Of a DNA stretch of 55,269 nt, positions 46,991-51,087 are shown piece by piece. The stretch's first letter is position 1, and every line of letters starts with the position of its first letter. The translations under genes were made by a program, and so were the position numbers. Below the pieces are notes generated by a model. That model was not told the DNA's origin. It did not search any database and saw only the letters and a program-made list of their open reading frames with translations. This DNA comes from Chloroflexi bacterium OHK40 (lineage in GTDB: Bacteria; Chloroflexota; Chloroflexia; Chloroflexales; Chloroflexaceae): NCBI GenBank assembly GCA_004367505.1, contig SFCB01000045.1:1-55269 (forward strand). The letters are read 5' to 3'.

Positions 46991-48566
46991 GTAAAAGGTC
47001 AGGCCCTTTGATAAAGCGCAGAAAGCGCGACTGTAGAAAATAGATTAGGCAGATTTGAGGGGTTGGACGAGGAGGGGGGCCGGTTGGCCTGCCCAGGCCT
47101 TCGTCACCGCCTCGGTCACAAATTCGAACAGCGAACGCTGCTGCTGCTCACAGGTGGCGTGCACACTGAGCATCCGCTCGACAAACCGGCAGCCGGCTTC
47201 ACTCCGCGAACCGAAACAGCCCTTGCGCCAGAGCACGGCGTGACGAAGGGCTCGTTCGGCCCCGTTGTTCGTCGGTTCCACCCCTTCCACTCGCGAGAAT
47301 GTCCAGAGCGCCTCCCAATGCCCGAGCAGCTCTCGGCAGAAGCCGGCGATTTTCGGGTAGCGGCTTACCGCCCCGTCCTCGAGCTCGGCTCGCAGGGTCT
47401 GCTTGAGCGGGATAAGCGCCAGTTGGAGGCCGACACGGTCGAGCCATCCTCCTTTATGCAGGCCCCAGAGAACGAACAGCTCCCCCGCCAATTCCAGCAC
47501 GCGCTGCGCCCAGAGGCTCTCTTCTCGATAGTAGTCCAGCAGGGCCTGCAGGTTGCGCAGCAGGTGAGCCCAACAGATCTGCCGGCGCTCATCGGGGTAC
47601 TGCTCGTAGGCCCGGAAGCGGTCCGAGCCGACTATGCCCACGAATGCCTCGCCGAGCAGATGCCGCAGAGCCGGCCCACTGCGGCTCTGATGCACGCGAA
47701 AGCAGGTCGCAATCGCACAGACCGCGACCCACAGCCAGCCTTTGCGGGTCTGGGTTGGCCAACTCGTCTCATCGGCATTCACCACCTCGGCCTCGCGCAC
47801 CACCGCGGCAATTGCTGCATCGACCGGAGCCAGGGCCTCACTCGTACGCTCACAGCCGGTCACGACGCTGGCCGCACTGAGGGGGAGATGACAGACATCA
47901 GCCAGGAACTCGGCTGCATCGTCGAGACTGAAACGGTAGCGTGCGCGCAAGACCGCCATCAAGGCCGTGGCACGAGGACCAAATGCACCTGGTGGAGCAT
48001 CAGGAGGCAAGTCAGCCGTTACCAGGGTGCGACAACAGGGGCAGCAGCGGGTGTGCTGGCGGTACTCAGTGATGTGGGGGCGAATGACGGGCAGTTCCCA
48101 GACCTGAGTACGGCGTGGCTCACCAAGGGTCGGCAACTGCTCAGAAAAGAGTGCGTGGCAGTCGGGACACTGCTCAGGCAGGAGTTCGACCGGCTCATCG
48201 ACGCGTTCAGGCGGAACGAGTGGGCGTTGATGGCCTTCGTGCCCAGACTGACCACCAGCCTTTCGACCACGTGGAACCTTTGGTGGTTTGGGAGGCGCCG
48301 AGGGCGGGTCAGAGGAGGGCGGCTTCGACGAGTTGCGCGAGGTTTGACCGACCTTGGCCTGGAGGTCTTTGACCAGGGTTTGGAGGTCCTTGAGCTGCGT
48401 GCTCTGGCTTTGAACGATCTCGAGGAGCGCGTGAACTGCCAGACGAACCGACTCAGGGGTCTTCGCCCAGTCTTCCGGTGGAATACCCAGCAGGTTGATC
48501 GGCTCCTCATGCATACGCCGCAAGATGCCATGGGGCCGCCCGGTTGTCAACCCCCTGACCTTTTAC
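46991..48566 (-). mobile_element. IS66-family insertion sequence, single-gene (ISBst12-like) type
   Basis: 1576 bp. Terminal inverted repeats start GTAAAAGGTCAGG at both ends (46991 on plus; 48566 on minus), with the GTAA tip usual for IS66. An 8-bp duplication GTCGCCAC flanks it, the size known for this family. It carries one transposase gene and lacks the tnpA/tnpB accessory genes of classical IS66. Ends, duplication and gene all look intact, so it was inserted recently. Confidence 0.92.
47045..48514 (-). CDS. IS66-family transposase (TnpC-like)
   Basis: 489 aa from ATG 48514; a TTG at 48550, next to AGGGGG, could add 12 residues. N-terminal coiled coil (LVKDLQAKVGQTSRNSSKPPSSD) is the IS66 signature, followed by a zinc-binding region (CPDCHALF, CCPCCRTL). 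The DDE acids are seen in VVNADETSW (D), GSDRFRAYE (D) and TNNGAERALR (E), and the CWAHLLRN motif lies between the last two. The gene is full length with no frameshift. It acts on the ends of its own element; expression is probably from within the left part of the IS. Confidence 0.93.
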   Translation of the reverse strand: MHEEPINLLGIPPEDWAKTPESVRLAVHALLEIVQSQSTQLKDLQTLVKDLQAKVGQTSRNSSKPPSSDPPSAPPKPPKVPRGRKAGGQSGHEGHQRPLVPPERVDEPVELLPEQCPDCHALFSEQLPTLGEPRRTQVWELPVIRPHITEYRQHTRCCPCCRTLVTADLPPDAPPGAFGPRATALMAVLRARYRFSLDDAAEFLADVCHLPLSAASVVTGCERTSEALAPVDAAIAAVVREAEVVNADETSWPTQTRKGWLWVAVCAIATCFRVHQSRSGPALRHLLGEAFVGIVGSDRFRAYEQYPDERRQICWAHLLRNLQALLDYYREESLWAQRVLELAGELFVLWGLHKGGWLDRVGLQLALIPLKQTLRAELEDGAVSRYPKIAGFCRELLGHWEALWTFSRVEGVEPTNNGAERALRHAVLWRKGCFGSRSEAGCRFVERMLSVHATCEQQQRSLFEFVTEAVTKAWAGQPAPLLVQPLKSA

Positions 48567-48626: not shown

Positions 48627-49643
48627 CTACACTTGCCGCCCCACCGCGTTCGCCACGGCGGCGAGCTTCGGCATGAGCGCGGCAAAGTTCTCCGGGCTGA
48701 GCGACTGGCCCCCATCCGACTTGGCGCGGTCAGGGTCGGGATGCACCTCGATGATGATCCCGTCGGCACCAGCGGCGATTCCGGCGAGGGCCAGGGGCGG
48801 CACGAGGTACCACTTGCCAGTGCCGTGGCTCGGATCGACAATCACGGGCAGGTGGGTGCGACGCTTGGCGAGCGCCACGGCGTTCAGGTCCATCGTATTG
48901 CGGGTGGCGGTCTCGAAGGTGCGGATGCCGCGCTCGCAGAGGATGACGTTGGGGTTACCCTGGGCGGCCACGTACTCGGCGGAGAGCAGCCACTCCTCGA
49001 TGGTGGCGGAGAGGCCGCGCTTGAGCAGCACGGGCATGCCGGTGCGGCCAACCTCTTCGAGCAGTTGGTAGTTCTGCATGTTGCGGGCGCCGATCTGCAG
49101 CACGTCGGCGTAGCGGGCCACCAGATCCACATCGTTGGGCGTCATCACCTCGGTGACGATCGGCAGGCCAGTCTCCTCGCGGGCCTGGGCCAGGAGCTGC
49201 AGGCCCCGCTCACCCATGCCGCGGAAGGTATAGGGCGAAGAGCGGGGCTTGAAGGCACCACCGCGCAGCATGGTGGCACCGGCCTCGCGCACGGCCCGCG
49301 CCGCAGCCATGATCTGCTCCTCGCTCTCCACCGAGCAGGGGCCGGCGATCACCACGCAGCGCCCGGCGCCCACCTGCACGCCACGCACGTCCACCACGGT
49401 GTCGGCGGGCCGCAATTCGCGGGAAACGAGCTTGTACGGCTGGGTGATGCGCACCGTCTCCTTCACCCCGGCGAAGTGCTCCAGCTCCTCGCGCAACGTC
49501 GGGGGGATGGACGCGCCAACGACGCCGATGACAGTGCGCTCCTCACCGCGCACCAGGTGGCCGCGGAGCTGGTGCTCCTCGATCCGTTCGATCACGGCCT
49601 GGATCTGGACCTCGTTTGAGCCTGCCTGCATCACGACGATCAT
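48627..49643 (-). CDS. aroF: 3-deoxy-7-phosphoheptulonate (DAHP) synthase, type I-beta
   Basis: 338 aa. It condenses phosphoenolpyruvate and erythrose-4-phosphate, the first step to aromatic amino acids. ATG 49643 is chosen for GAAGGAG upstream and because [19 protein letters not shown] begins the ferredoxin-like regulatory domain (1-70) of Thermotoga-type enzymes; GTG 49796 and ATG 49742 would add a non-conserved tail. Catalytic marks: [48 protein letters not shown] and VDPSHGTGK. Enzymes of this type with that N-terminal domain are inhibited by Phe and Tyr. It is the second gene of the aroH-aroF operon, so the Phe/Tyr attenuator upstream should control it too. Confidence 0.95.
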
Positions 49644-49799: not shown

Positions 49800-50210
49800 T
49801 TACGCGGCGCGGTCGGGCGGGGCGGGCTTGAAGGCGGCAAGGGCGGTGGCACGGTCGGGACGAAGGTTGGTGGCGCCACGGATGTAGACATGGGCCACCT
49901 CGTCGGCGCGGCGCTCGGTGTTCCAGTGGATGAGCACGCGAATGCAGCAGCGCAGGCTGCCCGGCACGTCCATCTCGTGGCCACAGAGCAGAGCGGTATC
50001 GGTCCAGCCGAGGGCACGGGCGGCCACAGCGGGGAACTCGGCGTCGAGATCCGTGGTGGTGGTGAAGATCGCGCTGGCGATATCATCGGGGTGGATACCA
50101 TTGCGCTCGATCAGCAGCTCGAGCAGCTCGCGGGTAGCCGCGAGGATCGCCTCGCGGGTGTTGGCCTCACAGGTGGTTGCGCCGCGGATCCCTCGGCAGT
50201 AGACGGGCAT
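49800..50210 (-). CDS. aroH: Chorismate mutase, AroH type
   Basis: 136 aa. It turns chorismate into prephenate, the branch toward Phe and Tyr. GGGAGG precedes ATG 50210. The start [15 protein letters not shown] and the body [27 protein letters not shown]-like [14 protein letters not shown] and [13 protein letters not shown] match the Bacillus AroH trimeric fold, with Arg7, Glu/Asp and Arg of YIRGA in place for the active site. It is the first gene after the leader-peptide attenuator, 30 bases downstream of the terminator. AroF follows, so the two enzymes specific to making and using the aromatic precursor are co-regulated. Confidence 0.95.
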
Positions 50211-50226
50211 AGGGCCTCCCTGATCT

Positions 50227-50271
50227 GGCGAACAAACAGAGAGGGCGTGAGGCCTGGTGCCTCACGCCCTC
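50227..50271 (-). terminator. Attenuator terminator of the aroH-aroF operon
   Basis: On the minus strand GAGGGCGTGAGGC (50271-50259) and GCCTCACGCCCTC (50253-50241) pair perfectly over 13 bp around a 5-base loop ACCAG, then TCTGTTTGTTC follows. It lies 29 bases after the leader-peptide stop and before aroH. The loop and first three bases of the 3' arm (ACCAGGCC, 50258-50251) are exactly complementary to GGCCTGGT at 50324-50317 in the leader gene. Confidence 0.85.
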
Positions 50272-50299
50272 TGAGCGAGTTGTCTATCGACCGGAGTTC

Positions 50300-50380
50300 C
50301 TAGACAGTGCGAAGCGACCAGGCCGTATGTGGCTGGCTAAAGTAAAAATAGAAGTAAAAGCTGTGGCGACTAGGGGCCAT
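50300..50380 (-). CDS. Phe/Tyr leader peptide of the aroH-aroF attenuator, 26 aa
   Basis: ATG 50380, stop TAG at 50300-50302. The peptide starts MAPSRHS, then codons 8-14 (50359-50339) read F-Y-F-Y-F-Y-F, then SQPHTAWSLRTV. Seven aromatic codons in a row, four Phe and three Tyr, cannot be expected by chance and define the amino acids sensed. The predicted transcript starts about 36 bases upstream. The ribosome site is weak (GTGAAG). The gene is followed by an inverted repeat TAGACA/TGTCTA (50306-50301 with 50286-50281) that spans its stop codon and could serve as the pause hairpin, then the terminator. Role by analogy with pheA and pheST leaders of enteric bacteria: slow translation when Phe or Tyr is scarce keeps the terminator from forming. 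Confidence 0.88.
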   Translation of the reverse strand: MAPSRHSFYFYFYFSQPHTAWSLRTV

Positions 50381-50422
50381 CGCGCTTCACATCCGCATCT
50401 ACAACGGGTCGCTTCGCCGTCG

Positions 50423-50451
50423 AATATAACACAGGGGGCGAGGGGCGTCAA
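50423..50451 (-). promoter_or_regulatory. Promoter of the attenuated aroH-aroF operon
   Basis: On the minus strand TTGACG (50451-50446), a 17-base spacer, and TATATT (50428-50423) preceded by TGT. Predicted start near 50416. Confidence 0.8.
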
Positions 50452-50502: not shown

Positions 50503-51087
50503 CTAGGAACCGAGGAGCTCCTCGGCCTCAATAATCGCCTGGGCGATATCGCGCATCTTGGCGCGCTTGTCGCGAGCGCGCTGGCGCAGGCGCTCGTAGG
50601 CATCACGCTCGTTGAGGCCGAGGCGCTGCATCAGGATGCCTTTGGCACGCTCGATGAGCTTGCGCGCCTCCAGCGAGTCCTCCAGCTCCGTCACCTGGGC
50701 GCGCAGAGCCTGGATCTCGCGGAAGCGGGCCATCGCGATATTGATCGCGGGGGGCAACTCGTTCTCGTTGACGGGCTTGACGAGGTAGGCCAGCGCACCA
50801 GCGGCCTCGGCCTTTTTGATCGTCTCTTTGTCCGCGTAGGCCGTGAGCATAATGATCGGCACTGGCGCGATGTCGCGGATGCGGGCGGCAGCCTCGGTGC
50901 CCTCCATCTCCGGCATGCGGATATCCATAATGATCAGGTCGGGCTTGAGGCGCGTGGCCAGGTTCACCGCCTCGGCCCCTGAACGGGCGATCCCGATCAC
51001 ATCGTAGCCCAGCCCCTTTAGCTGCTCCTCCAGCGTAAGGGAGACGAGGTCGTTGTCCTCGGCGATCAAGATTCTGACGGGAGCCAC
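50503..51087 (-). CDS. Response regulator with ANTAR RNA-binding domain
   Basis: 194 aa from GTG 51087 after AAAGGTG. Residues 1-120 are a receiver domain: ILIAEDNDLV, acceptor Asp in LIIMDIRMP (about 54), LTAYAD and YLVKPVNE. A short coiled coil leads to the ANTAR domain (about 130-190): ARKLIERAKGILMQRLGLNERDAYERLRQRARD, with the conserved Ala and aromatic position. ANTAR domains bind paired hairpins in mRNA leaders and prevent termination. The kinase partner could be any of the kinases in the window; none is directly next to it. The structured leaders nearby do not show the known dual-hexaloop ANTAR site. Confidence 0.93.
   Translation of the reverse strand: MAPVRILIAEDNDLVSLTLEEQLKGLGYDVIGIARSGAEAVNLATRLKPDLIIMDIRMPEMEGTEAAARIRDIAPVPIIMLTAYADKETIKKAEAAGALAYLVKPVNENELPPAINIAMARFREIQALRAQVTELEDSLEARKLIERAKGILMQRLGLNERDAYERLRQRARDKRAKMRDIAQAIIEAEELLGS

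Follow-up and report, generated by a model that had tools for sequence, protein, structure and literature searches.

A probable leader-peptide attenuator with mixed Phe/Tyr codons upstream of aroH-aroF in Chloroflexota

Inspection of the window, by which we mean the whole 55,269-nt stretch of Chloroflexota DNA analysed here, placed two genes of aromatic amino acid synthesis next to each other on the minus strand. The upstream one, aroH (49800-50210), encodes a type I chorismate mutase (Pfam PF07736, E 7.8e-47) and is the candidate first gene under control of the leader described below. The candidate second gene, aroF (48627-49643), encodes a DAHP synthase with an FXD regulatory domain (PF00793 and PF18152); its start was assumed to be the ATG at 49643, the reading frame being open from 49796. 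By Pfam assignment both products are enzymes of Phe/Tyr synthesis. The FXD domain fits a type I-beta enzyme, and DAHP synthases of type I-beta are inhibited by Phe and Tyr. In most relatives aroF also lies downstream of aroH on the same strand. An IS66-family transposase gene (47045-48550, minus strand) follows immediately downstream of aroF in the window. A gene for an ANTAR response regulator (50503-51087, minus strand; PF00072 and PF03861) is found directly upstream of the aroH promoter, and occupies the same place in many, not all, Chloroflexales.

The intergenic region between the ANTAR gene and aroH contains, in order on the minus strand, a promoter, a 26-codon ORF and a terminator hairpin. 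Direct reading of the promoter (50423-50451) identified TTGACG at 50451-50446 and TATATT at 50428-50423, separated by a 17-nt spacer, where a first-pass annotation of this DNA had placed them. The pattern TTGAC(N) and TATA(G/T)T with a spacing of about 17 nt is kept across aligned family members. Such a sigma-70-type promoter ahead of the leader ORF is expected to start transcription at about 50418-50415. The ORF (50300-50380, minus strand), which encodes MAPSRHSFYFYFYFSQPHTAWSLRTV followed by a stop codon, was supported by the ORF list and by orthologues. Its codons 8-14 (50339-50359) read Phe-Tyr-Phe-Tyr-Phe-Tyr-Phe (FYFYFYF), so that the ORF list bore out the earlier description of both ORF and codon run. 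A pattern search for at least six consecutive TTY/TAY codons (TWY x6) found a single occurrence in the 6.93-Mb genome, namely this leader. No clear Shine-Dalgarno sequence was seen ahead of the leader ATG in the window. The folding energy of the leader RNA is 5.3 s.d. lower than that of shuffled sequence.

The intrinsic terminator (50231-50272, minus strand) consists of a 14-bp stem with the arms AGAGGGCGTGAGGC and GCCTCACGCCCTCT (50272-50259 with 50253-50240; -29.7 kcal/mol), a 5-nt loop (50258-50254) and the tail CTGTTTGTT (50239-50231), and its stem ends 29 nt from aroH. It had been described as a perfect 13-bp hairpin followed by a T-rich tract; the hairpin held up, the stem proved to be 14 bp, and the tail is merely moderately T-rich. 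The U-tract is thus weak in the window, and the T-tract is stronger in Anaerolineae-type loci. In an alignment of 32 sequences, 97% of cells at terminator pairs were paired, with two-sided changes in 7 of the 14 pairs. Where ORF selection was correct, the terminator followed the stop codon at a distance of 17-46 nt. The near relative represented by L007/L034 retains its promoter, its leader ORF and region 2 but lacks the 5' arm and loop of the terminator, some 30-40 bp, either through genuine loss of attenuation in nature or because the hairpin collapsed during assembly.

An alternative pairing competes with this hairpin. The first-pass annotation had noted that GGCCTGGT (50324-50317) is complementary to ACCAGGCC (50258-50251). 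The match is exact, and its limitation to 8 nt did not hold, as these bases form the core of a 19-bp antiterminator with one bulged C that reaches into the terminator 5' arm (-34.5 kcal/mol). Its 5' strand, region 2 (GGCCTGGTCGCTTCGCACTGTCTA, 50301-50324, minus strand), was delimited by pairing with region 3 and overlaps the last leader codons; its 3' strand is made of region 3, which is the terminator 5' arm (50259-50272, minus strand), together with the loop and the first bases of the 3' arm. Computed antiterminator and terminator pairings are mutually exclusive. Within region 2, TGGTYGCTTCGC is near-invariant among relatives. Use of TGGTYGCTTCGC alone as a marker was rejected: of 20 extra matches fetched, 6 were aroH leaders of another family and 14 were in unrelated contexts, attributable to chance.

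The spacing of these elements suits a stalled ribosome. In the window, as in nearly all Chloroflexales, region 2 begins 14 nt past the final codon of the aromatic run, about as far as the leading edge of a ribosome would reach with that codon in the A site. Measured from the same codon in the window, the stop codon, which overlaps region 2, ends at 39 nt. The proposal that region 2 would be free at the stall and covered at the stop codon therefore agrees with the measured geometry.

Comparison with shuffled tails supported the antiterminator individually (p <0.05) in 48 of 63 loci, comprising 30 of 32 in Chloroflexales and 18 of 31 elsewhere; among those that did not reach significance were some distant loci (e.g., L037, L071, L074, L080 and L088). 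Folding of the nascent RNA allowed at least 8 region 2:3 pairs before emergence of the terminator 3' arm in 62/63 loci. In the 32-sequence alignment 90.7% of antiterminator cells were paired, compared with 33-46% when the strands were slid. Substitutions in the antiterminator across relatives were mostly G-C/G-U exchanges, as expected of bases that must pair in the terminator as well. When the full leader was folded at equilibrium, with the ribosome modelled as a block, the terminator was favoured at every ribosome position tried. Antitermination would therefore have to be kinetic, as in other attenuators.

A further element, absent from the first-pass annotation, was found at the very start of the transcript. 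Region 1 (GCGAAGCGACC, 50407-50417, minus strand), in the 5' UTR, is perfectly complementary over 11 nt to the leader end GGTCGCTTCGC (50319-50309) and forms an 11-bp helix with it in the MFE fold. Tested against shuffles across relatives, region 1:2 pairing gave a median p of 0.24 and was significant in 5/36 loci. In a stricter test the longest complement averaged 5.8 nt against 4.3 nt for shuffled sequence (p<0.05 in 6 of 28 loci). Roseiflexus-like members have a GCGAAGC complement within the leader ORF. We tentatively regard the weakly conserved region 1 as a possible anti-antiterminator or pause helix, which could compete with the antiterminator even under a stalled ribosome.

Conservation of the leader was examined around AroH relatives from the same family, where 38 of 41 genomes had one, and around further ones from a large genome collection. 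A Phe/Tyr-rich ORF was present upstream of aroH in all 30 family loci examined. A blind detector, requiring an ORF with at least 5 F/Y/W in eight residues and then a hairpin of -12 kcal/mol or lower followed by T's, was positive in 70 of 115 aroH upstream regions, in none of their reverse strands and in 0/345 dinucleotide shuffles. A wider survey drew on Pfam hits from 400 phylum genomes, sampled at one to several genomes per family, from which 40 upstream regions were fetched and added to 29 from loci in hand. This survey detected ORF and terminator in each of the order's four families, as well as in many Anaerolineae-type families; neither family f13 of the same class nor a large-genome family (f30) yielded them. 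Named carrier loci belong to Anaerolineae, Ardenticatenia, Caldilineales and Thermoflexales, and the combination was not found upstream of aroH in the fetched loci of Dehalococcoidia, Planctomycetes and several other groups. Two doubtful survey positives (L241 and L224) were left out of consideration. A covariance model (R1) built from Chloroflexales matched 29 of the 400 phylum genomes, all in families f1 and f4; primary sequence is too diverged for one model, although the architecture persists. Absence of an aromatic-rich ORF from close relatives had been named in advance as grounds for abandoning the attenuator; instead, ORF and terminator recur across the family and the order and among Anaerolineae-type relatives.

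The composition of the aromatic run is conserved in a particular manner. Phe and Tyr both occurred within the best ten residues in 60 of 63 loci; for the remaining three the script had chosen a wrong frame, and the true ORFs are mixed. Codon differences in the run comprised 391 synonymous changes, 305 exchanges among F, Y and W, and 143 others. This preponderance of synonymous or F/Y/W changes indicates that what is conserved is the aromatic nature of the codon, and practically all loci mix Phe with Tyr. From such nearly universal mixing, joint reading of Phe- and Tyr-tRNA charging is probable. Three Roseiflexus-like loci (L125, L126 and L127) have runs such as YYFWFWYF, in which Trp codons are added; to judge by these codons, Trp may be sensed there along with Phe and Tyr. 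In the 13 codons past the run, variability was 0.250, 0.355 and 0.200 at codon positions 1, 2 and 3. The third position being the least variable, constraint on the RNA rather than on the peptide is indicated.

We interpret the leader as a classical ribosome-mediated transcription attenuator of aroH-aroF, with a probability of roughly 0.9. This interpretation, already put forward in the first-pass annotation, is supported by the elements themselves, their conservation and covariation, their mutually exclusive pairings and a spacing suited to a stalled ribosome; from these we infer translation of the ORF, termination at the hairpin and a response to Phe and Tyr. In the proposed mechanism, RNA polymerase would start just after 50423, and a ribosome behind it would translate the 26-codon leader. 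With too little charged tRNA-Phe or tRNA-Tyr, the ribosome would stall on FYFYFYF with its leading edge just short of region 2. Region 2, left free, would pair over about 19 bp with the emerging terminator 5' arm and loop, so that no terminator forms and aroH-aroF are transcribed. When both tRNAs are charged, the ribosome would reach the stop codon at 50300 and cover most of region 2, the 14-bp terminator would form and transcription would stop. Tentatively, the region 1:2 helix may keep aroH-aroF silent whenever no ribosome translates the leader. Bacteria with this leader thus probably switch aroH-aroF off when Phe and Tyr are plentiful.

The most interesting alternative to leader-peptide attenuation is offered by the ANTAR neighbour. 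The response regulator encoded at 50503-51087 could bind the leader RNA and prevent the terminator in the manner of AmiR/NasR, the leader ORF being incidental, and its gene is indeed directly upstream here and in many Chloroflexales. However, a hairpin with an A..G.. hexaloop was seen nowhere in the window leader and only scattered in relatives, and a search of the window leader for a hexaloop hairpin pair in which the second hairpin overlaps the terminator found no such arrangement. The gene is also non-adjacent in eight family members that have the attenuator (L009-L011, L016, L020, L026, L029 and L030) and adjacent in 0 Anaerolineae-type loci. Since antitermination by an ANTAR protein would moreover leave the conserved Phe/Tyr codons unexplained, we consider it very unlikely. 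We give the same low credence to the idea that the ORF product is itself functional, as a small protein or peptide that acts in trans, with the terminator serving another purpose. In favour of this idea, a WSLRTV-like motif at the C terminus of the leader peptide is kept in the family, but past the aromatic run it is the third codon positions that vary least, which points to constraint on RNA rather than protein. Distant leader tails are unrelated as peptides while most stay complementary to their own terminators; with just the aromatic run in common among distant leaders, action of the peptide in trans is unlikely.

A strong hairpin located between two genes might also be a plain terminator of the upstream gene, accompanied by a chance ORF and involved in no switching. 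Against this, a conserved promoter sits between the upstream gene and the hairpin, the antiterminator pairing is conserved, and so are aromatic ORF and hairpin, a combination which none of the 345 shuffles reproduced and whose codon run is unique in the genome; we regard this explanation as extremely unlikely. The approximately 40 nt from the expected transcription start to the ORF are too short for a T-box, and no T-box or other riboswitch among the Rfam families matched the leader at E up to 5. Direct sensing of uncharged tRNA or of a metabolite by a T-box or other riboswitch is therefore the least credible of these explanations, even though tyrosine genes are under T-box control in other bacteria (cited in PMC1262725).

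Leader-peptide attenuation of aroH-aroF being preferred, we consider it fairly likely that the leader is an old, class-spanning attenuator of Chloroflexota. In it, one codon run would integrate charging of Phe- and Tyr-tRNA (and of Trp-tRNA where runs resemble the Roseiflexus-like YYFWFWYF) and govern entry to the aromatic pathway via aroH and aroF; where region 2 begins would be dictated by the footprint of the stalled ribosome. With such an attenuator, Phe and Tyr would act back on the pathway at two levels, transcription and enzyme activity. Its mixed run offers a natural test of multi-amino-acid sensing by a single leader, and the spacing of region 2 provides an estimate of the leading edge of the stalled ribosome in Chloroflexota carriers.

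Mechanisms of this kind are already known from phe, trp and his attenuators; what is new is a widely conserved case in Chloroflexota. No relevant covariance-model match of the window leader to Rfam amino acid operon leader families was obtained up to E 5, and full-text searches of open-access papers, which did not cover the survey by Lopatovskaya et al. 2010 (Mol Biol 44:128), returned no case of leader-peptide attenuation in Chloroflexota. The leader would thus extend this form of control to a phylum for which we found no report, with conservation in two or more of its large groups, and the breadth of this conservation bears on the age and mobility of leader-peptide attenuation.

The closest known systems are the enteric pheA and pheST leaders, which are ribosome-mediated, Phe-only attenuators. 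They have in common with the Chloroflexota leader a run of product codons in a leader ORF, an antiterminator/terminator switch and target genes at the level of chorismate mutase. The Chloroflexota leader differs in its alternating Phe/Tyr codons, with Trp added in some relatives, in its targets, a monofunctional type I chorismate mutase (aroH) and a DAHP synthase, in its phylum and in having no Rfam match. In the trp leader of E. coli, region 1 is part of the leader ORF and is covered by the stalled ribosome; the window instead has its complement of region 2 ahead of the start codon. Trp attenuators of Proteobacteria and Actinobacteria (PMC1262725 for the latter) share the four-region logic and a conserved motif present in both alternative helices, but carry Trp codons in place of Phe/Tyr codons. 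According to PMC2965389 (2010), leader-peptide attenuation had been shown in no group outside Proteobacteria and Actinobacteria before the Firmicutes case reported there. That case, the hisS/hisZ leader peptides of bacilli, likewise falls outside the classical phyla, but unlike the aroH leader it involves histidine codons and genes of tRNA synthetase type. Finally, Table 7 of PMC1173090 gives putative attenuators ahead of tyrA/aroF operons in other groups. These resemble the present case as predicted terminator/antiterminator structures upstream of aromatic pathway operons; the text of that paper mentions neither leader peptides nor Chloroflexus, whereas the structure described here is coupled to a leader ORF with Phe/Tyr codons.
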